DNA of 36,167 nucleotides from a virus, in the IMG/VR virus record IMGVR_UViG_3300025168_013319, positions 1 through 36,167 of that record. One strand, given 5' to 3'. Made by a program: the position numbers and the translations under genes. Each line of letters starts with the position of its first letter. Position 1 is the stretch's first letter. The notes under the pieces were generated by a model that worked only from the letters and a program-made list of their open reading frames with translations, searched no databases and was not told the origin of the DNA. Shown in pieces: positions 4,586 to 28,591 of the stretch.

Positions 4586-5526
4586 TGGACAATAAAGATT
4601 TCTTGTGGGTCGAAAAGTATCGCCCCCAGACAATCAAGGATTGTATTTTGCCAGAGAATGTCAAGGAGACATTCGAAGACATGGTTCGTGTAGGAGAAGC
4701 ACAGAACCTGTTGCTGTCGGGTGGCGCCGGTTGTGGAAAGACTAGTATTGCAAGGGCCCTTTGTAATGAACTTGGTGCTGAGTACATTCTGATCAACTGC
4801 TCAGAAGATGGAAACATCGATACTCTCCGTACCAAGATTCGAAACTTTGCAAGTACAATCTCATTGAGTAATGCGAAGAAGGTTGTTATTCTAGACGAAT
4901 TCGACTATTCTAATGCACAGTCTACACAACCGGCGCTACGCGGTTTTATTGAAGAGTTCTCAAAGAACTGTCGGTTCATCCTGACTTGTAACTTCAAGAA
5001 TCGAATCATCCAACCGCTGCACTCCAGATGCACGAACGTGGACTTCAAGATTGTCAAGTCGGACCGACCCAAGTTGGCAATGCAGTTGATGGAGAGTGTC
5101 AAGAAAATTCTTGATGCTGAAGGTGTGGTGTATGAGGAGAAGGTTCTTGCTGAACTTATCTCCAAGTATTTCCCTGACTTCCGCCGCATCATTAATGAGT
5201 TGCAGAGGTACTCTGTTTCTGGTACAATCGATGTCGGTATCCTTGCAAACATTGGTGATGTCCAGATCAAGGACATGATCTCCTTCATGAAGAAGAAGGA
5301 GTTCACCAATGTACGCAAGTGGGTGATCGACAGTATCGACAACGATCCTGCCGTGATCTTCCGGAAGATTTACGATGGACTGTACGAGCATTTTGCACCG
5401 CAAAGTATTCCTCAAGCAGTCATGGTACTCGCAGACTACCAGTACAAGTCTGCCTTCGTTGCGGATCAGGAGATCAACCTGACTGCATGTCTAACAGAAC
5501 TGATGCTGGAGTGTGAATTTAAATGA
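4585..5526 (+). CDS. 44: Clamp loader large (ATPase) subunit gp44
   Basis: This is an AAA+ ATPase that, with gp62, opens and loads the gp45 ring. Visible features are WVEKYRPQ at residues 8-15 (the RFC/gp44 opening motif), Walker A GGAGCGKT (46-53), Walker B VVILDEFD (100-107), a sensor-1 region FILTCNFKNR (131-140) and the SRC box (147-149) with the trans arginine finger. The 313 residues match T4 gp44 (319). It shares one base with gene 45 and runs into the GroES-like start by an ATGA overlap at 5523-5526. The assignment is secure. Confidence 0.97.
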   Translation: MDNKDFLWVEKYRPQTIKDCILPENVKETFEDMVRVGEAQNLLLSGGAGCGKTSIARALCNELGAEYILINCSEDGNIDTLRTKIRNFASTISLSNAKKVVILDEFDYSNAQSTQPALRGFIEEFSKNCRFILTCNFKNRIIQPLHSRCTNVDFKIVKSDRPKLAMQLMESVKKILDAEGVVYEEKVLAELISKYFPDFRRIINELQRYSVSGTIDVGILANIGDVQIKDMISFMKKKEFTNVRKWVIDSIDNDPAVIFRKIYDGLYEHFAPQSIPQAVMVLADYQYKSAFVADQEINLTACLTELMLECEFK

Positions 5527-5825
5527 GTGATAAGTTTTATCCCGTGAGAGGGAAAGTTGTTCTTAAGAGAAATGTGAAGTCGGGAGTCTCTGATGCAGGA
5601 GTTGTATACACACCAAAGGAGCATCCAAAGTATCTACTTGGTATGGTTTCTTCGATCGGTGTGCCTGCTGTTTTGCCTAATGGGAAAGAACTGGAACCTG
5701 AATACAAGGTGGGTGATTATGTAATGTATGATTACTCACGGGGTATGGAAGGATTTGGTGGATTTGATTTGGTAATGCAGGATCAGGTTATTGCTGTTGT
5801 CGATAAGGACACTGAAATTTCATGA
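5523..5825 (+). CDS. groES: GroES/Cpn10-like co-chaperonin (T4 gp31 analogue)
   Basis: Cpn10 proteins cap GroEL; T4 gp31 replaces GroES so that the capsid protein can fold. This 100-residue protein starts with the family's YPVRGKVVLKR strand (compare PLxDRVLVKR), then a mobile-loop-like segment SGVSDAGVVYTPKEH (about 20-34), then LLGMVSSIGVPAVLPNGK, KVGDYVMYD and a final VIAVVDK strand, all in Cpn10 order. Placement between 44 and 62, two subunits of one complex, is unusual: in T4 gene 31 is elsewhere. It overlaps both neighbours by four bases. It is more GroES-like in length than gp31 (111). It probably works with host GroEL during head assembly. Confidence 0.85.
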   Translation: MSDKFYPVRGKVVLKRNVKSGVSDAGVVYTPKEHPKYLLGMVSSIGVPAVLPNGKELEPEYKVGDYVMYDYSRGMEGFGGFDLVMQDQVIAVVDKDTEIS

Positions 5826-6686: not shown

Positions 6687-7400
6687 ATGCGACTTTTGAT
6701 CAAGTTTCCTACTCGTTCCCGCCCTGACAAATTCAAACAAGTTTTAGAAATGTACATCGATTACCTATCTGGTAAGCACGATGTGCGTTTCGTTATTACA
6801 TGTGACGAAGACGACAAGACAATGAACAACCCCAAAGTTCGTAAATGGTTTGGTTCCCTACAAGAAAGTGGCGTAAACTTAACTGCATACTACGGCGATT
6901 CCTCAACTAAAATTGAAGCATGTAATGCAAACATGGAAGACGAAACTTTCGATGTGGGACTTCTGGCATCAGATGATATGATCCCCCAATTGAAAGGGTA
7001 TGATGATATCATCCACCAGATCTTTGAAAAGACTTGGCCAGAGTTTGATGGAGCAGTTAAGTTTAATGATGGTCTTCGTCCGGATGCTCTGTGTACTCTA
7101 CCAGTAATGGGAAAGAAACTATACGATGCAATCGGACACTGGTATCACCCAGACTATACTAGCATTTATTGTGACACCGAGATGACAGAACTCTGTATGA
7201 TGCTTGGTAAATTTGCTGTATGCGAAACATGTATCATCAAGCATGAGTGGGTTCCCGGTGGTCACGAAGAATCTGATGAACTACACACGATGCAGGAAAG
7301 TCCTGAGATGTACGAGAAGGACGGCGGCGTCTTCAACAAAAGAAAGAACGAACTTCAGTTTGATGTTCAGGAAGTAGCGAAGAGACTTAATCATGCCTAA
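6687..7400 (+). CDS. Glycosyltransferase-like protein (GT-A fold)
   Basis: First gene of the glycan island, 18 bases after regA with AAAGGA upstream. The 237-residue protein opens with RLLIKFPTRSRPDKF and VRFVITCDEDD, has KIEACNANM (about 75-83) and a DXD-like ASDDMIP (about 93-99), the layout of small GT-A family 2-related transferases that bind a nucleotide sugar through a metal at the acidic motif. Donor and acceptor are unknown. It overlaps the next glycosyltransferase by eight bases, so the two are probably coupled. Confidence 0.7.
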   Translation: MRLLIKFPTRSRPDKFKQVLEMYIDYLSGKHDVRFVITCDEDDKTMNNPKVRKWFGSLQESGVNLTAYYGDSSTKIEACNANMEDETFDVGLLASDDMIPQLKGYDDIIHQIFEKTWPEFDGAVKFNDGLRPDALCTLPVMGKKLYDAIGHWYHPDYTSIYCDTEMTELCMMLGKFAVCETCIIKHEWVPGGHEESDELHTMQESPEMYEKDGGVFNKRKNELQFDVQEVAKRLNHA

Positions 7401-8025
7401 GAATAAAGACGATATAAAATTTAGTGTGTTGATGCTTTCGATCCCATCGAGACTCGACAAGTACAGGGTTCTACAGGATAAACTACTCGGCCAGATTGGT
7501 GATCGAGAAGATGTAGAAGTCATTTGTGTTATTGATAACAAGTCCCTACACATCTGGGAGAAGAGAAATGAACTTCTTCGGATGGCAAGAGGAACACACA
7601 TTGCATGGTTGGATGACGACGACGATGTGGCGGACAACTACATTGAACGGTTGACGGAAACTATAGAGGAAAATCCCAACGCTGATGTCATTTCATTTAA
7701 TCAAGACTGCTATCTCAACGGTGTTCATGCTAGGGTGTTCTTGAAAATGGGCAATCCACACGAACCAGTAAGACCCGCAGCAGATGGTTACTCGCAGGGA
7801 TTTCAAGATACACTTCGTCCCCCATATCATTTCAACGTGTGGAAGAGAACACTCGCACAATCAGAACTATTCCAGAGCATGTATCATCCACAAACTGGTC
7901 AGTCGTGTGAAGACATTGATTGGTTGCAGAGATTATATCCGAAGGTGGAGGAGAGCGTTGCTCTCGATGATTTCCTCCACGTTTACCAGTGGTCCTCAGA
8001 GGAAACGGAGTCTATCGTAACGTGA
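7393..8025 (+). CDS. Family 2 glycosyltransferase
   Basis: A 210-residue GT2-type protein. It starts with a beta strand typical of the family (FSVLMLSIPSRLDKY), continues to VEVICVIDNKSL and a helix KRNELLRMARGTHIAWLDDD (about 55-74), in which the acidic stretch WLDDDDDV is the metal/nucleotide-sugar motif. The C-terminal half carries a WKRTLAQSE segment and an acidic CEDIDWLQRL helix, as in GT2 enzymes with an ED-type base. It overlaps both neighbours. Product sugar is unknown. Confidence 0.82.
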   Translation: MPKNKDDIKFSVLMLSIPSRLDKYRVLQDKLLGQIGDREDVEVICVIDNKSLHIWEKRNELLRMARGTHIAWLDDDDDVADNYIERLTETIEENPNADVISFNQDCYLNGVHARVFLKMGNPHEPVRPAADGYSQGFQDTLRPPYHFNVWKRTLAQSELFQSMYHPQTGQSCEDIDWLQRLYPKVEESVALDDFLHVYQWSSEETESIVT

Positions 8026-8702
8026 AATTGATTACTTATTCATTATGGGGCGACAATCCAGTATACACGATTGGCGCGATTAAAAATGCAAAACAAGCAA
8101 TGGAGATGCTACCCGAATGGACATGTAGATTCTACATTGCCGATACTGTAGACTCTGCCATCGTTCGAAGTCTTGAGTTATTCCCGAACGTACAAACTGA
8201 AATGAGAACAGAGGAACCCGGATCGCTAGGTATGTTCTGGCGATTCGAACCAGCAGAAGACAGCAGTGTGTCACACATGATTTCGCGTGACACAGATTGT
8301 CGTTTCTGTGCGAGAGAAGTTTCCGCCATCAACGAGTGGGTTGACTCTGGTGAACAGTTTCATATCATGCGAGATCACCCGTACCACGGCGTTCCAATGC
8401 TCGGCGGAATGTGGGGTTGCCGAGGCGGAGCAGTTCCAAACATCGTTCGAATGATGGAAGACTTCAATGCGACAGATGAGAAGAGTCAGGATCAGTGGTT
8501 CCTTTGGAAACACATTCATCCTCTGTCTCTGAAAAATTGTATGGTACACGATCCGTTCTTTGCAGATACGGACTTCCCTATCACAGAGCGACCAAGTGAC
8601 GGTGTTGATTTCGTTGGACAATGTTTTGACGAGAATGATAAACCGGGAGGCAACTGGAAACACGATTTAGAAGTATTGGAGGAAGCACTATGCCAAAAGT
8701 GA
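8022..8702 (+). CDS. Putative glycosyltransferase, uncharacterised family
   Basis: This 226-residue protein begins VKLITYSLWGDNPVYTIGAI, an opening I associate with a family of small uncharacterised transferase-like proteins. It has a possible DXD motif (SRDTDCR, about 90-96) and a well-formed MRDHPYHGVPMLGGMWG block (about 115-131). I take GTG 8022 as the start because it makes a GTGA overlap with the previous stop; an in-frame ATG at 7989 would extend back into the preceding gene. The end overlaps the next gene by 13 bases. The glycosyltransferase role rests on the acidic motif and neighbours and is only probable. Confidence 0.6.
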   Translation: MKLITYSLWGDNPVYTIGAIKNAKQAMEMLPEWTCRFYIADTVDSAIVRSLELFPNVQTEMRTEEPGSLGMFWRFEPAEDSSVSHMISRDTDCRFCAREVSAINEWVDSGEQFHIMRDHPYHGVPMLGGMWGCRGGAVPNIVRMMEDFNATDEKSQDQWFLWKHIHPLSLKNCMVHDPFFADTDFPITERPSDGVDFVGQCFDENDKPGGNWKHDLEVLEEALCQK

Positions 8703-9427
8703 TCATGTCGTGTGACGACAATCCATACTACCTAGACTTCTGGCCGTTGGTGTCATGGGTCTGGAAAGAGAAAATGGGAATCGAACCTGTCCTTGTTCAT
8801 GTCGGGGAGAAAGAACCGTCCACCGAACATGGACAGGTTCATTCCATGCCCGTAGACGAAACAGTTCCTATTCATACTCAGGCACAACTCTCTCGAATGT
8901 GGTACACACATAAAGAACCAAATACAACATGGATAACAAGTGACATTGATATGTTTCCTATGTCTCGTAAGTATTGGCAGTCCGTTGTCTTAGAATTTTC
9001 CCAACGTACATGGACAAACCTAAACAGCAACGCTGACTACTTTCCTATCTGCTACAACATGGCGAGAGGTGAAGTCTTTGCTGATGTTTTGGAGATCGAG
9101 TCTTCGTTCGCAGATTATTGCCATAAGGTTTCTGATTCGGTTGATGAAAACTTCGAACATAAACCAAACAACTGGCCGGAAGACGTAACATTATCAAAGT
9201 GGAATATTGATGAGGTTCATTCGTCACGAAAGATCTGTGAGTTTAGGGACTCTGGTGGAGATGTTTGTCAACCAATTCCCATGATGACATTGAACCGAAG
9301 AATTGACAGAACTAACTGGACATACGACAAAAGTATGGTACAATCGGGGGAGTATATTGATTGTCACTCTGTCCGTCCCTATAGCGTATACAGCATGGCA
9401 ATAAAGGATCTGTTGGGGTTACTATGA
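8690..9427 (+). CDS. Putative glycosyltransferase with DXD motif
   Basis: The protein is 245 residues. MPKVIMSCDDNPYYLDFWPL leads into a Rossmann-like half, and TTWITSDIDMFPMS (about 80-93) contains a DXD motif set like those of GT8-type and related GT-A enzymes. The remainder is unrecognised (SDSVDENFEHKPNNWPEDV, MMTLNRRIDRTNW). It lies in an overlapping run of transferase genes, with a four-base overlap at each side or close to it, which supports a carbohydrate role. Family and donor remain unassigned. Confidence 0.55.
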   Translation: MPKVIMSCDDNPYYLDFWPLVSWVWKEKMGIEPVLVHVGEKEPSTEHGQVHSMPVDETVPIHTQAQLSRMWYTHKEPNTTWITSDIDMFPMSRKYWQSVVLEFSQRTWTNLNSNADYFPICYNMARGEVFADVLEIESSFADYCHKVSDSVDENFEHKPNNWPEDVTLSKWNIDEVHSSRKICEFRDSGGDVCQPIPMMTLNRRIDRTNWTYDKSMVQSGEYIDCHSVRPYSVYSMAIKDLLGLL

Positions 9428-10104
9428 ATCATACCGAAATACCATTCTACATTTGTCATTGTAAGAAACTAACAGAACGAAAAGAACCACTTGAAAAAGA
9501 ATTGGATCGTGTTGGCATCAAAAATGCGACATGGATTCTGGATTTCGATGGTGACGAGTTACCTGATGGATACGAGGAAACTATTCTGAATACCTCTTTG
9601 TGGGGCGAAAGAATGCAGATGTCGATGTATCCCTCACCTCCTCGGTTCCGGGTATTGAGTAGACCTATTTCATCTTTAGTTATGAAGCATCGGGAATCAT
9701 ACCGAAAGTTCGTAGAAACTGATTCCGATTACGCACTTGTATCAGAAGACGATACAATCTTCAATGAAAATTTCGGGGATGAGTTCTCTGAGTTTATGGG
9801 AAGTATGCCACCGCAAGTTGACATCGTTCATATGTGTGCAGCGTCAGGCCTGTTTCCTAATGGCATCACCACTGATCAACATTTTTATGAACATCCATTG
9901 ACTAGGGGTACTGGATTATATCTGATATCAAAACGTGCTGCTACTATTATGTCCGAAGGACTTGATAGGTTCTGTGGTCCAATTGATTTTGAGATCAATT
10001 ATTTTGTTGAGAAGTATAATCTAAAATCCTTTTGGTTACACCCCCTGTTGGCAATTCAAGGATCCGAAACCGTTTATGGATCTTCTCTGTCTGGGGTACG
10101 ATGA
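9424..10104 (+). CDS. Family 25 glycosyltransferase-like protein
   Basis: GT25 enzymes include beta-1,4-galactosyltransferases of lipooligosaccharide. The 226-residue protein has the family layout: an opening IPFYICHCKKLTERKEPLEK in which the helix with ERK is the usual start, a central YALVSEDDTIF (about 102-112) with the GT25 EDD motif, and a later GTGLYLISKRAA (about 160-171), the GTxxYxIS box. It sits four bases into the previous gene and hands over to the GT29-like gene by ATGA at 10101. Family assignment is good; the sugar is unknown. Confidence 0.8.
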   Translation: MNHTEIPFYICHCKKLTERKEPLEKELDRVGIKNATWILDFDGDELPDGYEETILNTSLWGERMQMSMYPSPPRFRVLSRPISSLVMKHRESYRKFVETDSDYALVSEDDTIFNENFGDEFSEFMGSMPPQVDIVHMCAASGLFPNGITTDQHFYEHPLTRGTGLYLISKRAATIMSEGLDRFCGPIDFEINYFVEKYNLKSFWLHPLLAIQGSETVYGSSLSGVR

Positions 10105-10787
10105 ATTACACAGAGTTCCTAAAAAATAAAACAGTGGCGTTGGTTGTGTCTGGTTCATCATTGAAGGATTCTGGGCGTGGTGAGGAGATCGACTCTTATG
10201 ATATTGTGATCCGATTGAACCGAGCGTTACCAATAAAAAATCAAAAAGATGTTGGACAAAGGACAGATGTATTGTATAATACACTTGATGGTTATCCTGA
10301 CGCCGGAGGACCAATCGACGGAGAGTTGTGGAAAAGATGTGGAGTTCAGATGGTTTGTTCAACGTACCCTAAATCAGAATACTTCACACACCCACAGAGA
10401 TCTGAAAACTTGGATTCTATTTTACCCACTCGTTGGATGTCGGATGAAACATACTACCCAATCAAAGAAAAGGTTAAGTTCAGACCCAATTCAGGAACCA
10501 CCACATTGGTAGACTTGCTTTCTTTTGATATGAAAAGCATCCATCTATTTGGGTTGGATTTCTTCCGCACGTTGTATGATACTGGTTATCTGTCCGATGG
10601 TGGAAGCGTGAAGGAGTTTGAATCACATTTGGCAATGAATCAGAATGATCGACACGATCCTGACTCGCAGTATTTGTTTTTCAAAAACGATATCTATCCA
10701 AATGATGATCGTATTATCGTGGATAAATATTTCCAAGACATCTTGAGTGATTCTAGTTATGATAAAATGTTTTTTGTAGAGGATTGA
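10101..10787 (+). CDS. GT29 / sialyltransferase-like glycosyltransferase
   Basis: GT29 enzymes move sialic acid from CMP-sialic acid. The 228-residue protein carries a recognisable L sialylmotif, VALVVSGSSLKDS (12-24), then EEIDSYDIVIRLNRA, then DVGQRTDVLY. It also has an S-type motif with RPNSGTTTLVDLL and IHLFGLDFF, and a late RHDPDSQYLFF histidine/acidic box. The paired cysteines of animal enzymes in the L and S motifs are absent. ATG 10101 makes an ATGA overlap with the GT25-like stop. The next gene encodes a CMP-sugar synthetase, the expected donor maker. That the donor is CMP-sialic acid itself is not proven; a CMP-linked relative is equally possible. Confidence 0.78.
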   Translation: MNYTEFLKNKTVALVVSGSSLKDSGRGEEIDSYDIVIRLNRALPIKNQKDVGQRTDVLYNTLDGYPDAGGPIDGELWKRCGVQMVCSTYPKSEYFTHPQRSENLDSILPTRWMSDETYYPIKEKVKFRPNSGTTTLVDLLSFDMKSIHLFGLDFFRTLYDTGYLSDGGSVKEFESHLAMNQNDRHDPDSQYLFFKNDIYPNDDRIIVDKYFQDILSDSSYDKMFFVED

Positions 10788-10789
10788 TA

Positions 10790-11929
10790 ATGAAATCTGT
10801 TGCAATGATTCCTGCCCGACTCGGCAGTAAAAGAGTCCACAATAAAAATCTTAGACTAATTGGTGGTAAACCATTAGTGTCTTATATCATTGAGTCTGTG
10901 ATAAAGTCCGGTGCGTTTGCACTTGAGGATATCTACATCAACTCTGAGTCGGATGTGTTCAAATCAATTGCAGATGACTATGGTATTAAGTTTTATAAAA
11001 GACCTGATAGTTTATCTACAGATAGTGCAACGAACGATGACTTCGTTTTAGACTTTATTAACACAGTTGATTGTGGTATGATTTTTCAATTCCTGCCGAC
11101 TTCACCTTTTATTCTTGGATCAACCATCCGAGAGTTTTATGATTGCATGATCGATAGCAACACCGAAACATTAATTTCTACTACAGACGTTCGGATCGAG
11201 TGTCTCTATGATGGACAACCATTGAACTTCAAGCAGAAGGAAAAGACACCACCTTCACAATCCCTGACTCCAGTCAAGGCATACGCTTGTGGTATGATGG
11301 CATGGGAAACACGCAGATATAAAACGAACATGGAGAGATACAACTCTGGATATCATGGTGGGGATGGAAAGACTGGATTCTTCCCAGTGTCTGGGTTTGC
11401 ATCAGTTGATATTGATACAGTTGATGACTTTCTTTTGGCGGAGAGAATCGTAGAATCTATGGATAACGATCAAAAGATGGAAGTTCAATACTACGATCCA
11501 GAATTGCACTCGGGCGTTCGCTCAGAAGTTCATGTTCCTACTATTCTAAAGACTGACGGTGTAGAGGCCTCGAATTTCGAACAAGAGAATCAGACTATCA
11601 CGAACCTCGATGACCTTTTAAAAAAAAACATGAATGATTCGTGGATGCATCGTGTTATAAATTCAGAGAGCAATAGTTGTTGTGTAATTCATCAAAGACC
11701 CGGCGAGGGTAATCGCCGTCACTATCATCCATCATGGAATGAGTGGTGGTATATACTAAAGGGAGAATGGGACTTCGAGATTGAAGGAACCGTTCATAGA
11801 GTTAAGAAGGGTGATCTGGTTTTCATTCCAAAGAACCGATGGCATTGTATCAAATGTGTTGGTGATCAACCCGCAGCAAGATTAGCAGTCAGCAGAGAAG
11901 ACGTATCGCATGTCTATAAAAACGACTAA
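10790..11929 (+). CDS. CMP-sugar synthetase (NeuA-like) fused to a C-terminal cupin
   Basis: The N-terminal ~225 residues are a cytidylyltransferase of the acylneuraminate group: MIPARLGSKRVHNKN (6-20) is the CTP-binding loop, GGKPLVSYIIESV follows, and FLPTSPF (101-107) matches the QPTSPLR box of CMP-NeuAc/pseudaminate synthetases. The C-terminal part (about 285-375) is a cupin with histidines in RRHYHPSWNEWW (about 309-320) and GDLVFIPKNRWHCI. This fusion is uncommon. The cupin might bind the product or catalyse an epimerisation. ATG 10790 has GAGG eight bases upstream; a TTG at 10784 is less likely. It stands between the GT29-like transferase and an aminotransferase. No NeuB-type synthase occurs in the window. 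Confidence 0.85.
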   Translation: MKSVAMIPARLGSKRVHNKNLRLIGGKPLVSYIIESVIKSGAFALEDIYINSESDVFKSIADDYGIKFYKRPDSLSTDSATNDDFVLDFINTVDCGMIFQFLPTSPFILGSTIREFYDCMIDSNTETLISTTDVRIECLYDGQPLNFKQKEKTPPSQSLTPVKAYACGMMAWETRRYKTNMERYNSGYHGGDGKTGFFPVSGFASVDIDTVDDFLLAERIVESMDNDQKMEVQYYDPELHSGVRSEVHVPTILKTDGVEASNFEQENQTITNLDDLLKKNMNDSWMHRVINSESNSCCVIHQRPGEGNRRHYHPSWNEWWYILKGEWDFEIEGTVHRVKKGDLVFIPKNRWHCIKCVGDQPAARLAVSREDVSHVYKND

Positions 11930-11930
11930 T

Positions 11931-13052
11931 ATGAGTTTCTGGGATATGCGGATTGACTTTGATAAAAGTCATGGAAGTTATCTCTTCGACAAGAATACTA
12001 ACAGAGAGTACCTAGACTTCTTTGGTATGTACTCGTCTCTACCTCTCGGATACAATCACAAAGTATTTGATGAGGAGTTCCATCGTGAAATGAGAAGTAT
12101 CTCTACCGTCAAGGTCGCCAACTGTGAATTTCATACGGACGTATATGATAGGTTCTGTGATAAGTTAAATCAGTTTGCTGGTCTTGGCAAGTACGAAAAC
12201 TATCACTTTACTTGCACCGGATCATTGGCCGTCGAATGTGCTTGCAAACTTGCAATGGATTATAGTGGTAAGGATACCATAGTTTCCCTTGCGAATAGTT
12301 TTCATGGTATTCATTCTTATGGTAATTTCGCCACTAGTAAATTCTATCCAGTGAAAGATCGTCTTCATGGATTCCCCAATCTTCACTGGCCGAAAGTTCA
12401 TAATGTATTTGAATTGGACTTTCAAATAACCAAAGGTAATGTTGCCGGTATTTTAGTTGAACCAATTCAAGCGACATTTGGGGACAATCATTTTAGCATG
12501 GGATATCTCAAGTCTATCTCTAAGATGGCAAAGGACAATGACATTCCATTGATCTTCGATGAGATTCAAACAGGGTTTGGTACAACAGGCAAACCTTGGT
12601 ACTTCGAGCATCTTGATATCGAACCGGATATTGTTGTGTTTGGCAAAAAAAGTCAGGTGTCTGGTATCATGAGTACCCCAAAGATCCCGTTCACAAACGG
12701 CAGTCGTTTGTGTGTTACCTTTGATGGTGATATAGTAGACATGTTGAGATCAACTTATATAATGAAGGCATACGAAGAATATGACTTGCTAAATAATGCC
12801 ATACAGCAGGGGAAAAAATTAGTCAACGATCTTTCCTCTGTGGATGGTTTGCTGAATGTGAGAGGCATCGGATTGATGATTGCTTTTGACATGGAAAGCA
12901 AAACCATCCGCGATAATTTTGTTGACAAACTCAAGAATAATGGTATGATATGTAATCCTACCGGAGAAAAGTCGGTTAGACTGCGACCAAACCTAGCAGT
13001 AACTGATGATGACATACAACAATGCATTTACACAATAAGGAGCAGTACATGA
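11931..13052 (+). CDS. Class III aminotransferase, lysine-6-aminotransferase-like
   Basis: A PLP enzyme of fold type I, 373 residues. DEIQTGFGTTGKPW (about 209-222) holds the aspartate that bonds the PLP nitrogen. FGKKSQVSG (237-245) gives the Schiff-base lysine (K239 or K240) and closely resembles the FGKKTQVCG box of L-lysine epsilon-aminotransferases. The C-terminal LRPNLAVTDDDI is also standard. In this cluster the substrate is more likely a keto-sugar or keto-cyclitol than lysine, but that is inference. ATG 11931 starts two bases after the previous stop; ATG 11910 is possible and would add seven residues. The stop overlaps the SIS gene by four bases. Confidence 0.85.
   Translation: MSFWDMRIDFDKSHGSYLFDKNTNREYLDFFGMYSSLPLGYNHKVFDEEFHREMRSISTVKVANCEFHTDVYDRFCDKLNQFAGLGKYENYHFTCTGSLAVECACKLAMDYSGKDTIVSLANSFHGIHSYGNFATSKFYPVKDRLHGFPNLHWPKVHNVFELDFQITKGNVAGILVEPIQATFGDNHFSMGYLKSISKMAKDNDIPLIFDEIQTGFGTTGKPWYFEHLDIEPDIVVFGKKSQVSGIMSTPKIPFTNGSRLCVTFDGDIVDMLRSTYIMKAYEEYDLLNNAIQQGKKLVNDLSSVDGLLNVRGIGLMIAFDMESKTIRDNFVDKLKNNGMICNPTGEKSVRLRPNLAVTDDDIQQCIYTIRSST
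12922..12949 (+). promoter_or_regulatory. Candidate sigma70-type promoter with extended -10
   Basis: TTGACA at 12922-12927, a 16-base spacer, TGG then TATGAT at 12944-12949. It matches 11 of 12 consensus bases and has the TGn extension. It lies in the end of the aminotransferase gene about 100 bases before the SIS gene and could give a separate transcript for the SIS-SDR-cyclase part. It may still be chance in coding DNA. Confidence 0.4.
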
Positions 13053-13615
13053 ACAGTGCGCCATTTGGAAATCTAGAAGAACAGTTGAGAGAAAAAGTAG
13101 AAACTCCTGAGTGGGAGAGAATGATTGAAGGTATCAACAATGCTGATACCATTTACGTCATCGGTAACGGTGGAAACATGGCGGTTGCTAGTCATGCAGC
13201 AGCAGACATTACTCGTCTAACTAAAAAGAGAGTGTGGTCTTTAGATAGTCAGTCTCTTCTGACCTCCATCGCCAACGATTTCGGTTATGAAAACATCTTC
13301 AAGGATTGGTTAGATCTTTATGCCAATCCCAATGAACGAAGTATGGTTATTGGATTTTCTGGTTCTGGTAATTCTAAGAATGTTGTTTCTGCTCTTAATT
13401 GGGCAAACGAAAATCACAATTGGGCATGTACTTTGATCTCCGGATCTGGTTCTAACTGTCTAGATTCTAAGATCCCAGAGATCAATTTCGATAATGATTA
13501 TTTTCATCAACATGAGATTCTTTCTGTCATGTGTTTCTACGAGATTGTATACAACCTCGGACACAAGTGTCCCACGATCAAGGCAGAATTGGTTCGTAAG
13601 TACGGAACTACCTGA
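13049..13615 (+). CDS. SIS-domain sugar-phosphate isomerase (GmhA-like)
   Basis: SIS domains bind phosphosugars; GmhA converts sedoheptulose 7-phosphate to a heptose 7-phosphate. The 188-residue size fits GmhA (about 190). The phosphate-binding parts are IYVIGNGGNMAVASHAAAD (35-53) and IGFSGSGNSKNVVSAL (101-116), and the C-terminal half has an EILSVMCFYEIVYNLGH helix similar to the family's last segment. ATG 13049 overlaps the preceding stop (ATGA) and has AGGAG upstream. The substrate is uncertain: a heptose, a hexosamine phosphate or another keto-sugar. It precedes the SDR with one shared base. Confidence 0.82.
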   Translation: MNSAPFGNLEEQLREKVETPEWERMIEGINNADTIYVIGNGGNMAVASHAAADITRLTKKRVWSLDSQSLLTSIANDFGYENIFKDWLDLYANPNERSMVIGFSGSGNSKNVVSALNWANENHNWACTLISGSGSNCLDSKIPEINFDNDYFHQHEILSVMCFYEIVYNLGHKCPTIKAELVRKYGTT

Positions 13616-14322
13616 TGGACTTGTTTGGTAAAACTGCATTAGTAACCGGAGCATCTAGGGGAATCGGTAAAGCGATTCAAACTACCCTTTCTGCTGCCGG
13701 TGCAGTTGTTTATACCACAAGCAAATCTCATCAAGATCATGATACGCACATGCAGGTTGACTTTACAAACTCATCTTCGCGTGAAAACTTTTATTCTAAG
13801 ATAAAAGATTTGAAGTTTGACATCTGTGTAAACAATGCTGGTGTCAATAAAATTAAATCATTTGATGGATTCACTCCAGAAGAATATGATCACATTATGG
13901 ATGTTAATATTAAATCACCATTCAGGATAAATCAAATAGTTGGTAAAAGCATGAGTGATAATGGCGGTGGTAAAATTATTAACATCGCCTCTATCTACGG
14001 TGTTGTATCTAAACCACAAAGACTTCTATACACGATGTCAAAATCATCTCTAATTGGAATGACTAAAACTCTAGCGGTAGAATTAGCACACAAGAATGTG
14101 TTAGTTAACTGTGTATCACCGGGATTCACTTTGACAGATTTGACAAGAGAAGTTTTGGGTGACAGTGGTATCGAACAGACACAAAATAAAATACCTATGG
14201 GTAGACTTGCCAATCCGAAAGAGATTGCGAACACAGTTTTGTTTTTGTGTAGTGATCTAAACACTTATATCACTGGACAAAATATAATAATAGACGGGGG
14301 GTATGTCAGTGGTGAAAAATGA
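13615..14322 (+). CDS. Short-chain dehydrogenase/reductase
   Basis: A classical SDR of 235 residues using NAD(P)H: TGASRGIGKAI (11-21) is the cofactor loop, NNAG sits at 73-76, and the catalytic residues are S126 (IASIYG), Y139 and K143 (YTMSK). VSPGFTLTDLT and the closing ITGQNIIIDGGY are FabG-like. In this cluster it probably oxidises or reduces a hydroxyl of a sugar or cyclitol intermediate, before or after the aminotransferase. It is not likely to serve fatty acid synthesis in this setting. It shares one base with the SIS gene and overlaps the cyclase-like gene by 20 bases. Confidence 0.87.
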   Translation: MDLFGKTALVTGASRGIGKAIQTTLSAAGAVVYTTSKSHQDHDTHMQVDFTNSSSRENFYSKIKDLKFDICVNNAGVNKIKSFDGFTPEEYDHIMDVNIKSPFRINQIVGKSMSDNGGGKIINIASIYGVVSKPQRLLYTMSKSSLIGMTKTLAVELAHKNVLVNCVSPGFTLTDLTREVLGDSGIEQTQNKIPMGRLANPKEIANTVLFLCSDLNTYITGQNIIIDGGYVSGEK

Positions 14323-15358
14323 ATTGGTGATCTCATCATCCTCACGAAAATATACCGTAGAGTTTTGTTCTTATCTCGATGTATTACGACAGTACGATAC
14401 AGACGATGTTGTTTTTATTGTTGACGATTATCTTGATGTCTCTGATCTGAAAAACCACAAAGTAATTTCATTGACGGCATCAGAATATCAAAAGTCATTC
14501 GATGGAGTTGGTGAACTCATCTCTAAGTTAACCGAACTCGATATAACACGCAACACTAAGTTGGTTGCGTTTGGTGGTGGAGTTATTCAAGATGTAACTT
14601 CATTCACCGCATCAATAATGTTTAGGGGCATAGAATGGGATTTCATACCAACCACACTATTGGCACAGGGTGACAGTTGTATTGGATCGAAAACATCCAT
14701 CAATTTTTCCAAGTATAAAAATAGACTGGGTAATTTTTATCCACCATCAGCAGTTTATATTGATGTTAGTTTGCTCGACACTCTCCCTCGTTTACAACTC
14801 ATGTCTGGGTTGGGTGAACTTTTACATTACATAATGATCGACGGCGAGGAAAGTTTACGACTATTCCGAGATCACTTCCACGGGGGCGAAGTTTCCCTAT
14901 CAGATCTTATCCGTAGGTGCTTGTTCATTAAAAAAACAATCATAGAAAATGATGAATTCGATAGGGGTGAGAGAATAATACTCAACTACGGACATTCATT
15001 TGGCCATGCCATTGAGGGTGCTATGAAAAATAAAATACCACACGGAATAGCAGTTGCATATGGTATGGACTGTGCAAATTTTATATCATGTAAAATGGGC
15101 ATGATGAATAGATCAGACTACAATCGATACAACGAAGTGTTGTCTGCAATCTACAAGGAGTATCCGATCGAGAATATGGAAACGGGAGACATGATTCAGT
15201 GTTTGGGTAAGGATAAGAAAAACACCAGAGATTCATATCGAGTTATTCTTTCCCACACCGCCGGTGACATGTTTGTACAGGACATAAATAAGGACAGTAC
15301 ATTAAATATTATGATTGATGAGTGGAGACTAAATTATGAAGCAATTGCTGGTATCTGA
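14303..15358 (+). CDS. Dehydroquinate-synthase-like sugar-phosphate cyclase
   Basis: This superfamily (DHQS, EEV synthase, DOI synthase) turns a keto-sugar phosphate into a carbocycle using NAD and a metal. The 351-residue protein has GGGVIQDV (91-98), PTTLLAQGDS (116-125), K130, KN (139-140), E172, the metal histidines in NYGHSFGH (228-235) and H247. Aligned to DHQS, K210, R224 and N228 keep the triad that holds the substrate carboxylate, but the usual lysine of AEVIK is histidine (H175) and one glutamate is aspartate (D220). So the substrate may be an acid like DAHP, or differ. The start is ambiguous: ATG 14303 or GTG 14309, both near a G-run at 14296-14301. It overlaps its neighbours on both sides. 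Confidence 0.83.
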   Translation: MSVVKNELVISSSSRKYTVEFCSYLDVLRQYDTDDVVFIVDDYLDVSDLKNHKVISLTASEYQKSFDGVGELISKLTELDITRNTKLVAFGGGVIQDVTSFTASIMFRGIEWDFIPTTLLAQGDSCIGSKTSINFSKYKNRLGNFYPPSAVYIDVSLLDTLPRLQLMSGLGELLHYIMIDGEESLRLFRDHFHGGEVSLSDLIRRCLFIKKTIIENDEFDRGERIILNYGHSFGHAIEGAMKNKIPHGIAVAYGMDCANFISCKMGMMNRSDYNRYNEVLSAIYKEYPIENMETGDMIQCLGKDKKNTRDSYRVILSHTAGDMFVQDINKDSTLNIMIDEWRLNYEAIAGI

Positions 15359-15968
15359 TAGCAAAAATTTTGTGTATCACTTCATACCAAGGGCGGGAGC
15401 AAGTTCCCTAAAGTACCATCTTCAGAAATATGTAGAAGGTATGATCCCAGTACACAGAGACAACGTAGAGGTTCATGATTCTCCGTTGCATAAGGAGATC
15501 CGCAAGGTTGCAAGACCAGTTGCTGATCTACCGAATTACCCAAACCATTTTAAGTTTGTGGTAGTTCGTAACCCATACGATAGAATAATTTCTTATTACT
15601 ACGAGTATATTGCAGAGGACTTTGATAAATTCCTAGAGTATATCGATGTTCTTCGTCATGACTGGCAACCAAAAAAGCACGATCATGTTATTCCTATCCG
15701 GTACATGATGAACAAAACAACATACTATGATCGAATCTATAGACTAGAAGACAATGCATTTGAAATGATTCAGACTGAATTAAATCTTGATCCTTTTGAT
15801 GATGTCCGATTTAGTGTGTCTTCTAGACTAGGTGAGCAAAACCCTCTAACAGAAACACAGATGAAAAATCTCTGTGATCTAGTAGAGGAAGTTTATAATA
15901 TTGATTTACAAACTTTTAATTACACAAGAGAAGATTCAAATTACTTGAGGAGAATGCATTATGTTTGA
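15336..15968 (+). CDS. Sulfotransferase
   Basis: A PAPS-dependent sulfotransferase fold protein of 210 residues. FIPRAGASSL (16-25) corresponds to the 5'-phosphosulfate loop and VVVRNPYDRIISYYYEY (75-91) to the 3'-phosphate motif (RxPxxRxxSxY). The C-terminal half with YRLEDNAFEMI matches Sulfotransfer_2-type carbohydrate enzymes in layout. It probably adds sulfate to a sugar made or transferred by its neighbours; sulfate donor must come from the host. ATG 15336 has GGAG upstream and overlaps the cyclase-like gene by 23 bases; its own end overlaps the next gene by eight. Confidence 0.82.
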   Translation: MKQLLVSDSKNFVYHFIPRAGASSLKYHLQKYVEGMIPVHRDNVEVHDSPLHKEIRKVARPVADLPNYPNHFKFVVVRNPYDRIISYYYEYIAEDFDKFLEYIDVLRHDWQPKKHDHVIPIRYMMNKTTYYDRIYRLEDNAFEMIQTELNLDPFDDVRFSVSSRLGEQNPLTETQMKNLCDLVEEVYNIDLQTFNYTREDSNYLRRMHYV

Positions 15969-16353
15969 TTGGACAAAACCAACAGTCCAGATGCTTGGTA
16001 GATGGCAACCGTGGCACGATGGACACAGTGCCTTGTTTGAGAAAGCACTTGAAAAAACCGGCCAGGTATGTATTATGTGTCGAGAAGTCGGTGGAGTTGA
16101 TGCTGGTGTAGAAGGACAGGCAGACAATCCATTTGAGTTTGATGAGGTTGCTGCACGAATCATAGAGGTGTTGGCAGAAAAAGGTTATGAGTATGGAGTT
16201 GAGTACATGATCCTTCGGATCCCTAATGTTATTGATATATCATACGGCAGAACTGTCGGTTACACCTTTACTGAACATGATCTTGGTGAGGAAGTTCATG
16301 GTATTTCCGCGACTAAGGTTAGAGCAGAAATGCGATCACGCGGAGAACTTTGA
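15961..16353 (+). CDS. Small nucleotidyltransferase, TagD/cytidylyltransferase type
   Basis: The 130-residue protein carries GRWQPWHDGH (13-22), the HxGH nucleotide-binding motif, and the closing HGISATKVRAEM, equivalent to the ISSTxIR motif of glycerol-3-phosphate cytidylyltransferases and related adenylyltransferases. It would join CTP or ATP to a phosphorylated small substrate. The sulfotransferase next door makes a link with sulfate activation tempting, because ATP sulfurylase shares the nucleotidyltransferase fold, but size and motifs favour the cytidylyl/adenylyl group. GAGGAG lies eight bases before the ATG. The stop directly abuts the next start. Confidence 0.78.
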   Translation: MFDWTKPTVQMLGRWQPWHDGHSALFEKALEKTGQVCIMCREVGGVDAGVEGQADNPFEFDEVAARIIEVLAEKGYEYGVEYMILRIPNVIDISYGRTVGYTFTEHDLGEEVHGISATKVRAEMRSRGEL

Positions 16354-17256
16354 ATGCCCATTGCCCATTGCACCGGACCATGGTCTGGTTTGTATTTAGA
16401 TCTACCCTTCAAGTGTCATGTAGACACTAGACTCGTATCTAATTTCACCAGAGAATCAGACACAAAGTATGTTTACATTGACAGTGAACCGCCGTGGTCA
16501 TGTTCATCGATCGATGAGATTAAATCTGCTGCGGAGCGATATGATTTAATTATGACAACATATAACGAGGACATCATCGAACAGATCCCCGGTTCAATCA
16601 TGTATCATGTTCACCATGATCCTTACATAGACCCTGCATATAAACCAGAGTTTGATGAGAAAAAGTTTTATGTCAGTTACCTTGTTTCTAATTGGAAAGA
16701 AACAAAGCACGGTTTCTGGATTCGTAAACCAGCAGCAGAAATTCTGTCTAATCACAGTGTTCCGCACAAGGTATGGTCTGGTCGTCGAACTCCATACCCC
16801 GGCGCCGAACTGTTACCACAAACATACCCACCCACCGTGTTGGATGATTATAATAAATCAATTATGTTTGATGCTATGTTTTCTATCGCGGTGGAGAATC
16901 ATATCCAAAGAAATCACTGGCAAGAAAAAATCCTTGGGTGCTTCTGGACACGAACCGTTCCTATCTACTTCGGTGCGCCGAACCTATCTGAGTTTGGATT
17001 CAGAGAGGATGGGATCTTTCAGTTTGATACTGAAGAAGAGTTGTCTGACATTCTAGATAGTCTTAGTCCTGAGTTGTATGAAGAAATGAAGGAAGCAATC
17101 GAACATAACTTTCAACTCGTCATGAGTGACTACAATATTTCGCAGCATGTTGATATCGCAAACGGGATCACCAAATATTTTCTTGGTGATGTGCCAGAGG
17201 CAAATCGATTTGTCAGTGTAGAAGAATTTAATAAAGGATGGCCATGGAAGAAGTAA
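16354..17256 (+). CDS. Family 10 (fucosyltransferase-like) glycosyltransferase
   Basis: GT10 enzymes transfer fucose from GDP-fucose. The 300-residue protein has the diagnostic C-terminal donor region: MFDAMFSIAVENH (about 172-184), then WQEKILGCFWTRTVPIYFGA (about 189-208) and PNLSEF, matching the EKxxxxxxxGTVPVxxGAP pattern. A GDP-mannose 4,6-dehydratase at 21056 could start GDP-fucose synthesis, but the GDP-fucose synthase (Fcl) is not in the window. The donor might therefore be host-made or another GDP-deoxysugar. It starts right after the previous stop with GGAG upstream. Confidence 0.8.
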   Translation: MPIAHCTGPWSGLYLDLPFKCHVDTRLVSNFTRESDTKYVYIDSEPPWSCSSIDEIKSAAERYDLIMTTYNEDIIEQIPGSIMYHVHHDPYIDPAYKPEFDEKKFYVSYLVSNWKETKHGFWIRKPAAEILSNHSVPHKVWSGRRTPYPGAELLPQTYPPTVLDDYNKSIMFDAMFSIAVENHIQRNHWQEKILGCFWTRTVPIYFGAPNLSEFGFREDGIFQFDTEEELSDILDSLSPELYEEMKEAIEHNFQLVMSDYNISQHVDIANGITKYFLGDVPEANRFVSVEEFNKGWPWKK

Positions 17257-17957
17257 TAGATAATCCAATTATAGTAGACAAAGACTTTGACTACACTGGT
17301 TCGGGGAAGTTGCTTCGTGCCAAGAATCCAAACGAACCAATCTTCAGTGTCGTGGGACATTCTCTGAAAGTTTCTATAACTGCGGTGACTGTTGACAACG
17401 ATCAAACACTAGTAGAGTACAGTGATATTGGTTCTGGTGTATTGTGGATTTTGGGATGTCAAGCAAAAAAATTAGTTACTGGTTTTGCTCCTGAGTCTAG
17501 TATTGTTGTGGTTGGATCTCAAGTTTCGTGTGATTTTCTTGACGATGTAACGGCACTTAACAAACTAACAAGGGCAAATTTAGGCAACACCCGCGAGTAC
17601 AATGATGCCGTCGTCAATCCTATCCTGCATAACGAACCAACACCCGGAGAAGTTTTGACATTTCAACTAAAAAAGAATTTGACAAACGGTATTGGATGTG
17701 TTATAGTTAAGAATGAAAACATAACATATGTTGGAGGATTTGCTGGTGATCCAATCACGTTAGATTTAAACAACAATCCCACTGTATGGGAATGTTGCTC
17801 CCTAAATAATAGTAACAATTTACCCAGTAAATCAATTTTTATTAATTCATATCTTTCATCGTATTATGATGAAGATAACTTCGTTCATATTAATCCCCGT
17901 TCAACATTTGACTTGAAAGAACCTATCAAGTTCGCTGATAGAAAGAAAGGATCATAA
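17244..17957 (+). CDS. Hypothetical protein, beta-strand-rich
   Basis: This 237-residue protein matches no family I recognise. It looks like alternating short beta strands (VSITAVTVDND, SSIVVVGSQVSC, ITYVGGFAGDPITL), with no transmembrane segment, no DXD motif and no cofactor loop. Position between a GT10-like transferase and a CitE-like protein suggests a part in the same glycan pathway or a modified structural protein. ATG 17244 is preferred to ATG 17238 because AAAGGA at about 17232-17237 then has normal spacing. It overlaps the GT10-like gene by 13 bases and shares one base with the next gene. Confidence 0.6.
   Translation: MEEVIDNPIIVDKDFDYTGSGKLLRAKNPNEPIFSVVGHSLKVSITAVTVDNDQTLVEYSDIGSGVLWILGCQAKKLVTGFAPESSIVVVGSQVSCDFLDDVTALNKLTRANLGNTREYNDAVVNPILHNEPTPGEVLTFQLKKNLTNGIGCVIVKNENITYVGGFAGDPITLDLNNNPTVWECCSLNNSNNLPSKSIFINSYLSSYYDEDNFVHINPRSTFDLKEPIKFADRKKGS
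17679..17707 (+). promoter_or_regulatory. Candidate sigma70-type promoter with extended -10
   Basis: TTGACA at 17679-17684, 17-base spacer ending TGT, then TATAGT at 17702-17707: 11 of 12 consensus bases plus TGn. It is inside the hypothetical gene, about 250 bases before the aldolase-like gene, and could start a transcript for the second half of the island. Confidence 0.4.
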
Positions 17958-18481
17958 TGATTTTACTATCGAACCACCTACTTACTCTACCCGAATTCCA
18001 AAACGTGAAGAATGTTGTTGTAAGAATCAACATGGCACATGTGAAGGACAAGACCGAATTGGACAAGTTTGTTAATGTCGGTAAGGATATCTTTCTAGAT
18101 TATCCAAAGGGCAGAAGTAAACCACCACGACCAACCCTACATGTCCCAGATGCACTAGAGATGATGGCAAAGTATCCGAACATCAAATACTTTGCAGTGT
18201 CAAACATCGAGACTCCATCTGAAGTGAACATGATCGCAAGTGTCCTCCCAGAACATGTTAATTTCTGTCCTAAGATTGAAACTGTCAAGGGTGTGGTTGG
18301 ACTGGAAAAGATTTTCCAGACTGGACATGTTAAGCACATCATGCTTGACGCAGAAGATCTTTACACGGACACACAGAACGATGTCGAACTGTTCCTACAG
18401 TTGAAGGAAAGAGTACGAGCAACGTGTAAGCAGTATGATGTGGAATGTCTGGAACTCTACGGTGTAGTGTTCAAAGGATGA
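17957..18481 (+). CDS. CitE/HpcH-HpaI-like aldolase/lyase (short)
   Basis: The 174-residue protein resembles the central and C-terminal strands of the CitE/HpcH TIM-barrel family, which make or break C-C bonds with pyruvate, oxaloacetate or acyl-CoA. NVVVRINMAHV (about 19-29) gives the strand arginine. NFCPKIETVKGVVGLEKI (about 100-117) carries the metal-binding glutamate with the K-I-E-T pattern, and HIMLDAEDLYTD (about 127-138) matches the GxxDLxxD metal aspartate strand. Length is well below the usual 250-300, so it is a minimal or shortened barrel. With a CMP-sugar synthetase in the island, a 2-keto-3-deoxy sugar acid could be its product, but this is speculation. Confidence 0.6.
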   Translation: MILLSNHLLTLPEFQNVKNVVVRINMAHVKDKTELDKFVNVGKDIFLDYPKGRSKPPRPTLHVPDALEMMAKYPNIKYFAVSNIETPSEVNMIASVLPEHVNFCPKIETVKGVVGLEKIFQTGHVKHIMLDAEDLYTDTQNDVELFLQLKERVRATCKQYDVECLELYGVVFKG

Positions 18482-27492: not shown

Positions 27493-27502
27493 GAGATATA
27501 AA

Positions 27503-28591
27503 ATGAAATGGATTGAAGTAAATTATGTTTGGTTGGATGGAAACATCACACCACAACTTCGTAGTAAGACTAAGTTGATTGAAGTAGATGATGATCAAGA
27601 GAGCATGAATCTTCAGATGATTCCCGAATGGATGTTCGATGGATCTAGTTGTAATCAGGCAGACCCACATAAAAGTGATTTGATCCTTCGACCATACAGT
27701 CTGTCGAAGACACCGTGGGAAACCTTTGTTGTGTTCTGTGAGGTATTCAACTCAGACGGAAAGACGCCACACGAAACAAACTATCGTGCGCCTCTTCGCA
27801 TGACTCTCAAAGACAATCCAGAAACCAGAGATTACTGGTTCGGAGTCGAGCAAGAGTATGTTATTTACAACACTGAAACTAGTACGATTCTTGGGTGGGA
27901 ACAGGGTACTCCCGGACCACAGGGCCCATACTATTGTGGTGTCGGTTCAATGAGATCTGTTGGACGAAACTTTGTGAACGAACACTATGCAACTTGCAAG
28001 ACAATGGGTGTTCCCATTGAAGGTGCAAACGCCGAAGTCATGCTCGGGCAGTGGGAGTATCAGGTTGGATACATGGACGCACTAACCGTTGCTGATCAAC
28101 TTTGGATGGCAAGGTATATGGCAGAACTGATTAGTGAGAGATATAAGTATTCCATTAGTCTCCACCCCAAACCAAAGACCGGTGACTGGAACGGTTCGGG
28201 CGCACACATCAACTTCTCGACTCCATCCATGCGTATGGCAAAGTCATCCAGTATAGAATATCTGGAAAGTGTTTGTGATGAGTTCGGTAATCATCCTGAA
28301 CTGATTCGTGTCTATGGTGAAGACAATAATCTTCGACTGACAGGAAAGCATGAGACTGCACACATCGAGGACTTCTCGTATGGTGTTTCGGATAGAACCA
28401 AATCTATCCGCATTCCTGCCGATACTGCAAACGAAGAACGCGGACATCTCGAAGATCGAAGGCCTGCGGCAAACATGGATCCATATCAGGCGTTTACATC
28501 TATCATTGGTGTATTGCAACAAGTACCAGTGGCCGCGATCCGCGGCGGCGATGAAACTGAGGTAGAGCATGAAGTTGAAAGTGGAACTTGA
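27503..28591 (+). CDS. glnA: Glutamine synthetase, eukaryotic-type (GSII)
   Basis: The enzyme makes glutamine from glutamate, ammonia and ATP. At 362 residues it has GSII length, not the ~470 of bacterial GSI. It shows the beta-grasp motif FDGSSCNQAD (45-54), GVEQEYVI (114-121) with metal-binding glutamates, GANAEVMLGQWEYQVG (174-189), NGSGAHINFST (230-240), YGEDNNLRLTGKHETA (271-286) and GHLEDRRPAANMDPY (314-328). Active-site residues look intact. The start at ATG 27503 is preceded by AGGAGATATAAA. It lies between 43 and uvsX with its own candidate promoter at 27362, so it is an auxiliary gene set in the replication module. Adenylylation control as in GSI is not expected. Confidence 0.95.
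   Translation: MKWIEVNYVWLDGNITPQLRSKTKLIEVDDDQESMNLQMIPEWMFDGSSCNQADPHKSDLILRPYSLSKTPWETFVVFCEVFNSDGKTPHETNYRAPLRMTLKDNPETRDYWFGVEQEYVIYNTETSTILGWEQGTPGPQGPYYCGVGSMRSVGRNFVNEHYATCKTMGVPIEGANAEVMLGQWEYQVGYMDALTVADQLWMARYMAELISERYKYSISLHPKPKTGDWNGSGAHINFSTPSMRMAKSSSIEYLESVCDEFGNHPELIRVYGEDNNLRLTGKHETAHIEDFSYGVSDRTKSIRIPADTANEERGHLEDRRPAANMDPYQAFTSIIGVLQQVPVAAIRGGDETEVEHEVESGT

Follow-up and report, generated by a model that had tools for sequence, protein, structure and literature searches.

The window studied here is the whole of IMG/VR virus record IMGVR_UViG_3300025168_013319, a linear fragment of 36,167 nt, and our subject is a group of six genes between positions 10101 and 15358. We propose, with a probability of about 0.45, that these genes constitute a horizontally moving module to make, activate and transfer one unusual sugar by a route that runs through a cyclase resembling 3-dehydroquinate synthase (DHQS). 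The product would be a CMP-activated amino sugar, probably carbocyclic, which a GT29-type enzyme most likely transfers. The existence of a pathway is well supported; for the identity of the product we infer from gene identity, linkage and residue conservation, which are observed, as we do for every individual reaction. The genes are the following:

10101-10787, + strand: GT29-type (sialyltransferase-fold) transferase, presumed user of the CMP donor (PF00777, E=6e-11)
10784-11929, + strand: NeuA-type CMP synthetase fused to a C-terminal cupin, NeuA-cupin (PF02348, PF07883; start TTG at 10784 or ATG at 10790)
11910-13052, + strand: class-III aminotransferase (Aminotran_3, E=6e-62)
13022-13615, + strand: SIS-domain sugar phosphate isomerase, GmhA-like (SIS_2, E=2.7e-6)
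13615-14322, + strand: short-chain dehydrogenase/reductase (SDR), paired with the cyclase (adh_short_C2, E=2e-50)
14303-15358, + strand: DHQS-like sugar phosphate cyclase of the TIGR04425 clade (DHQ_synthase E=6e-34, DHQS_C E=2e-30)

All open reading frames from 10101 to 17256 are intact, lie on the + strand and overlap or adjoin each other in one operon. Together with the Pfam matches, this agrees with the preliminary description of the window, which had placed the genes in a single overlapping operon.

Related loci were fetched from viral and bacterial sequences with the aminotransferase and then with alignments of NeuA-cupin as bait. Co-occurrence of these two genes is by construction, while the SIS, SDR, cyclase and GT29 genes are independent of the bait; a viral scan with the cyclase as a single protein query gave no match. 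The module (NeuA-cupin, aminotransferase, SIS, SDR and cyclase) recurs, with its order reshuffled, in bacteria belonging to several phyla as well as in no fewer than 17 viral loci besides the window, and is thus not unique to this phage. The gene order of the window recurs in L003/L004, in L042 and L056 (with an extra gene) and in L044, L048 and L064; other orders are seen in L045, L047, L052, L055, L062, L063, L065 and L073. T4-type capsid genes (Gp23) are present in the records of L047, L048, L053, L056, L062, L065 and the cyclase-less L057, so that several carriers are, by gene content, clearly viral. The bacterial carriers belong to SAR86, Alteromonas, Nitrospirota, Omnitrophota, Planctomycetota, Margulisbacteria and Bacteroidota. 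We take the module to be mobile and to have moved horizontally between phages and bacteria. The arrangement is not due to chance, since these genes occur as a set in many unrelated loci and the dN/dS ratio, for NeuA-cupin, aminotransferase and SIS of the window against those of a close relative, is 0.08-0.10; the module is under purifying selection. The same recurrence upholds the earlier view that the genes serve one linked pathway and not unrelated steps.

Bacterial loci fetched by the cyclase family alone again contain the SDR and cyclase pair, mostly with a Gfo/Idh/MocA protein (inositol-dehydrogenase-like), a D-2-hydroxyacid dehydrogenase and a SIS protein. The 2-hydroxyacid dehydrogenase accompanies the cyclase in most bacterial loci and was not found in the cyclase-less NeuA-cupin loci L014, L016, L018 and L019. 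The cyclase family itself is rare, being detected at the thresholds used in 2 of 369 Gammaproteobacteria and in 8 of 285 genomes of the phylum of L014. In L094-L096 a KdsB-like CMP synthetase takes the place of NeuA-cupin, and the cyclase core is therefore tied to CMP activation in two ways. Four further loci (L012 of the cultured Alteromonas arenosi ASW11-36, L015, L017 and L021) have no aminotransferase, and a second SDR adjoins NeuA-cupin; this exchange may be read as a choice between an amine and an alcohol. Two additional families recur in the bacterial clusters, F33 (L008:4786-5784 and relatives) and F34 (L009:17415-19499), whose scanned members have no Pfam match.

The best family match of the cyclase is TIGR04425, which it resembles over its full length (364 bits) and in its glycan-cluster context, although the window protein stays under the curated cut-off of 400 bits and no phage pathway was attached to the family in the sources searched. 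Other module cyclases score 401-463 bits, many viral and bacterial members exceed the cut-off, and the window cyclase groups with such members in the tree. The NCBI name of TIGR04425 is AroB-related putative sugar phosphate phospholyase (cyclizing); the family is classed as a hypothetical equivalog, and no reaction is known for it. The alignment and tree were built with AroB of E. coli, Pasteurella, Leptospira and Streptomyces, second copies from the carrier genomes (which also encode an ordinary AroB), two 2-deoxy-scyllo-inosose synthases (DOIS), three sedoheptulose 7-phosphate (S7P) cyclases and one Ebo-like protein as references. All module cyclases fall outside AroB, DOIS, the S7P cyclases and Ebo (separating branch 100/100), with the window protein nested among them. 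The viral cyclases split into two clades with different bacterial neighbours, a pattern that suggests two or more transfers. A Prochlorococcus single-cell contig (L022) carries SIS, SDR, cyclase and a NeuA-cupin fragment, and its cyclase is a very long branch among the phage cyclases.

Residues of the cyclase are numbered after A. nidulans DHQS, with roles that we take to be those given by Carpenter et al. 1998. The module cyclases retain D146, K152, K161, N162, K250, R264, N268, H271, H275, H287 and K356, and E194 is kept in all except L022. They thus share with AroB the fold and the metal, phosphate and carboxylate residues examined, but K197 is replaced by His in phage and many bacterial members, the Glu of the HGE motif is usually lost (HGI), they form a separate clade and they do not stand in a shikimate operon. 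The reference S7P cyclases, DOIS and Ebo alter several of K250, R264, N268, H275 and K356. None of the S7P cyclase fingerprint changes at these five positions, and none of the DOIS changes (R264 to G/A, N268 to E, K356 to N), was found in the aligned window cyclase. An identity as 2-epi-5-epi-valiolone synthase or DOIS is rejected on active-site residues and tree, and an identity as AroB on the score against the aroB model TIGR01357 (259 bits, cut-off 305), the tree and the gene context. Because nearly all DHQS substrate residues examined are retained, a ulosonate phosphate resembling 3-deoxy-D-arabino-heptulosonate 7-phosphate (DAHP) fits better as substrate than validamycin-type chemistry; the substrate would thus carry a DAHP-type carboxylate and is probably not S7P.

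NeuA-cupin (CTP_transf_3, E=4e-19; Cupin_2, E=9e-17) has PseF as its closest named CMP synthetase. It retains motif I, Gln104 and the metal ligands Asp209/Asp211 in an alignment with CMP-Neu5Ac synthetase, whose residue roles have been described (PMC2901514). In the N. meningitidis enzyme, Arg165 of the RQ motif was reported to be essential and was placed against the sialate carboxylate (PMC2901514). This position is a Ser in NeuA-cupin among the aligned NeuA-cupin proteins listed, while the classic NeuA of the same bacterial clusters still has Arg among the aligned proteins listed. With its carboxylate-binding Arg replaced, NeuA-cupin does not appear to be an ordinary nonulosonate activator. 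The earlier suggestion that an unusual sugar acid is activated as a CMP derivative is thus borne out only by half, given the missing carboxylate-binding Arg (PMC2901514). The GT29 gene, whose ATG lies at 10101 as previously placed, encodes a protein with a PF00777 match above the cut-off, L and S motifs and the invariant catalytic His. All 17 of the 17 best PDB matches of its AlphaFold model (pLDDT 78) are sialyltransferases, at TM-scores of about 0.4-0.5 for a model of moderate quality. The protein is presumed to use the CMP donor of the module, and the two folds together support the proposed order of CMP activation followed by a GT29-fold transferase. The GT29 subfamily of the window (67-70% identity) is also present in L055, L057 and L075, alongside modules both with and without the cyclase. 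A 1078-aa multidomain phage glycosyltransferase with GT2, GT11, GT10-like and GT29-like regions is encoded at L004:5681-8917.

The aminotransferase is nearest to L-lysine 6-aminotransferase TIGR03251 (276 bits, under the cut-off of 521) and the SIS protein to GmhA TIGR00441 (55 bits, under the cut-off of 209); as closest named families, both match the labels first given to them.

In phage L002, NeuA-cupin, aminotransferase and SIS are 91-97% identical to those of the window, but SDR and cyclase are missing, and a protein of roughly 110 aa resembling the haloacid dehalogenase (HAD) family, with a weak Pfam match, is found in their place. Among the viral module loci, a HAD gene is present in 11 of 11 without a cyclase and in 1 of 18 with one (Fisher 3.5e-7, ignoring relatedness). 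The HAD proteins belong to two subfamilies, and in L068-L070 (L068:15910-16887) HAD and SIS form a fusion, which suggests that the exchange happened repeatedly. The cyclase-less bacterial locus L014 instead contains a gene of the inositol-phosphatase family. Plausibly, HAD and cyclase both remove phosphate from the SIS product, the one by hydrolysis and the other by elimination with ring closure.

These elements can be arranged into a candidate route. The SIS protein would isomerise a phosphorylated ketose, probably a C7 one, to the aldose phosphate, and two oxidations, at C1 and C2, would then give a DAHP-like 2-ulosonate phosphate without condensation of phosphoenolpyruvate (PEP). In bacteria the Gfo/Idh/MocA and D-2-hydroxyacid dehydrogenases of the clusters would carry out the oxidations; in phages these steps might be supplied by the host or bypassed, or DAHP itself might be used. 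The cyclase would eliminate phosphate and close the carbocycle, the SDR would set the alcohol, and the lysine-type aminotransferase would set the amine; in some bacteria the second SDR would act in its place. NeuA-cupin would form the CMP derivative, from which the GT29 enzyme would transfer the sugar to a phage or host surface glycan. In the HAD-type phages, a non-cyclised form of the sugar would be activated and transferred by these same enzymes.

The record contains neither NeuB nor a member of the KdsA/DAHP-synthase family by homologue search, in line with what the preliminary description had seen in the window; as the record is a fragment, this holds for the record and not for the whole phage. 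NeuB is likewise absent from the viral module records, including those of 156 kb and 165 kb, save for one weak match in G029, and it was not detected in the module-bearing bacterial genomes G001, G013 and G014, which are incomplete assemblies. Where bacterial NeuB is found, it is often accompanied by a classic, RQ-motif NeuA of its own (L010, L017, L099, L106). A standard NeuB elsewhere, which had been named as the finding that would overturn an unusual pathway, thus occurs near some bacterial copies, usually with a NeuA of its own; as a hidden partner of the module NeuB is weakened only. A KdsA/DAHP synthase partner occurs in 1 of 14 viral records tested (L053), as part of a separate set. That set (L053:5287-7126) comprises KdsA (KDO-8-P synthase), a KdsD-like isomerase without CBS domains and an HldE-type nucleotidyltransferase, and appears to be a phage-encoded Kdo-type pathway distinct from the module beside it. 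The module resembles the pathways to Kdo and Kdo8N (KdsD, KdsA, KdsC, KdsB; KdnA/KdnB) in its SIS isomerase, its phosphatase (in the HAD variant) and a KdsB-type CMP synthetase logic, but differs in having no KdsA in the window and a real cyclase in place of an alcohol dehydrogenase. In the cyclase clusters L094 (12636-14214) and L096 (3191-4746), an HpaI-type pyruvate aldolase gene overlaps the KdsB-like CMP synthetase gene, possibly a PEP-free route to a 3-deoxy-ulosonate.

Several points weigh against this proposal. The change of the carboxylate Arg to Ser in NeuA-cupin is awkward for a ring acid activated at the alpha carbon, and the evidence on the carboxylate is opposed, the cyclase speaking for it and NeuA-cupin against it, and not reconciled; the activated hydroxyl may be one other than that next to the carboxylate. 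A carbocycle has no anomeric carbon, which leaves the chemistry of transfer unclear. The phage loci lack a Gfo/Idh gene and all but L061 lack a 2-hydroxyacid dehydrogenase, so that the phage pathway is incomplete on its own genes. In L011, moreover, NeuB lies directly beside the aminotransferase gene, and it is near the module in several other bacterial clusters. The proposal is drawn from sequence, and we regard a carbocyclic product as plausible.

Some of these points favor a CMP-activated amino sugar without a carbocycle, the cyclase acting mainly as a phosphate lyase (yielding a deoxy or keto sugar) or its ring product being a side decoration, with NeuA-cupin activating the anomeric hydroxyl of a carboxylate-free sugar. 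The lost carboxylate Arg, the swap of HAD and cyclase with unchanged NeuA-cupin and GT29, and the cyclase-less bacterial loci L014, L018 and L019 would all suit this explanation, which we nevertheless consider unlikely, as the cyclase has a full DHQS active site and the aldol closure of DHQS is thought to be spontaneous after phosphate loss (PMC7144000). Somewhat less likely again is a plain pathway to a nonulosonic acid (NulO), with NeuB supplied by the host or the rest of the phage, NeuA-cupin forming an ordinary CMP-NulO, and cyclase and SIS acting elsewhere. The kinship to PseF and the NeuB genes near bacterial modules point in this direction, but the scarcity of NeuB in the viral records, its non-detection in the three bacterial genomes and its usual pairing with a dedicated RQ-type NeuA do not. 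The module shares with the sialic, legionaminic and pseudaminic acid pathways a NeuA-type CMP synthetase and a sialyltransferase-fold glycosyltransferase, and differs in the lost Arg and in NeuB, which is missing from nearly all phage records. To our knowledge, no known NulO pathway includes a cyclase, a SIS protein or a class-III aminotransferase.

The parallel with validamycin drawn at the outset would have the cyclase turn S7P into a C7 cyclitol, followed by amination and CMP activation. The GmhA-like SIS and the inositol-dehydrogenase-like partner do point to C7 or cyclitol chemistry, and the C7-cyclitol (validamycin/gadusol) and 2-deoxy-scyllo-inosose pathways also have redox and amination enzymes that act after a sugar phosphate cyclase. 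The parallel is not supported, however, by the cyclase, which shows no S7P cyclase residue changes and belongs to a clade of its own, and the module further differs in its NeuA-type CMP activation and GT29 transferase; we judge this chemistry improbable. An AroB that boosts aromatic synthesis as an ordinary shikimate-type auxiliary gene, present in a glycan block by chance, would account for the conserved DHQS active site but not for the separate clade, the additional AroB of the carrier genomes or the constant SDR, SIS and NeuA partners, and is very improbable.

The genes around the module place it in a wider glycan block. The record has T4-like phage markers (sliding clamp, clamp loader, RegA and polymerase genes), its polymerase is nearest to those of T4-like cyanophages (about 54%), and by these genes the phage, a marine one, is T4-like. 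The block runs in a single direction (+) between the RegA and polymerase genes and further contains:

6687-10104, + strand: five upstream glycan genes, two with glycosyltransferase matches (GT2-like, GT25-like), from the open reading frame list and family matches
15336-15968, + strand: sulfotransferase, flanking glycan modification (PF03567, E=2e-10)
15961-16353, + strand: small HIGH-type nucleotidyltransferase, 130 aa (CTP_transf_like 0.006, under the Pfam cut-off)
16354-17256, + strand: GT10-like glycosyltransferase (PF00852 0.0022, under the Pfam cut-off)
17957-18481, + strand: mini-barrel of the pyruvate kinase/HpcH superfamily, 174 aa (family and structure matches)

The sulfotransferase (Sulfotransfer_2, 2e-10) is co-linear in L002, L057 and L075, and GT10-like homologues recur beside the module, being 70-95% identical in L002, L055, L057 and L075. 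Most of the original gene labels proved sound, those of nucleotidyltransferase and GT10 being weak, as both matches are under the Pfam cut-off; the nucleotidyltransferase is probably not part of the module core. The mini-barrel, with a KIE and Asp metal motif and 70-99% conservation in five related phages, is the sole pyruvate/PEP-type enzyme found near the module. A role in a pyruvate- or PEP-handling step is possible, if unproven, and it might be the missing synthase; no homologue was found in the module-bearing L042 and L056, so it is not general. By eye from the translations, a glutamine synthetase-like gene (27443-28591) adjoins the phage DNA polymerase gene. A Cpn10/GroES-like gene (5523-5825) lies between the clamp-loader genes.

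None of the GT29, NeuA-cupin, cyclase and GT10-like proteins has a family in PHROGs. The earlier statement that no phage counterpart has been described stands, as neither 50,697 phage records nor the open-access papers searched yielded a real one, and these papers gave no description of a pathway for the cyclase family, CMP-carbasugars, cyclitol O-antigens or phage sialyltransferases fitting this module. What is new is a putative phage-borne nucleotide-sugar pathway built on an orphan cyclase family, undescribed in these sources. More tentatively than the module itself, we suggest that phages and bacteria share through it an undescribed way of making a carbocyclic amino sugar activated with CMP, which would be a pseudo-sialic-acid-like donor, with a 2-keto-acid precursor derived from heptose phosphate oxidation instead of PEP condensation, and that phages swap the ring-closing step in and out, thereby changing the displayed sugar. 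If true, TIGR04425, a family spread over several bacterial phyla, would gain a function, and surface-glycan chemistry would gain a new class of CMP-activated donor that is possibly carbocyclic and for that reason glycosidase-resistant, together with a CMP synthetase and a GT29 enzyme whose paired specificity is new. Phages would then trade pathway steps that alter the sugar they display, with a bearing on receptor masking, superinfection exclusion and evasion of host defence in marine bacteria.

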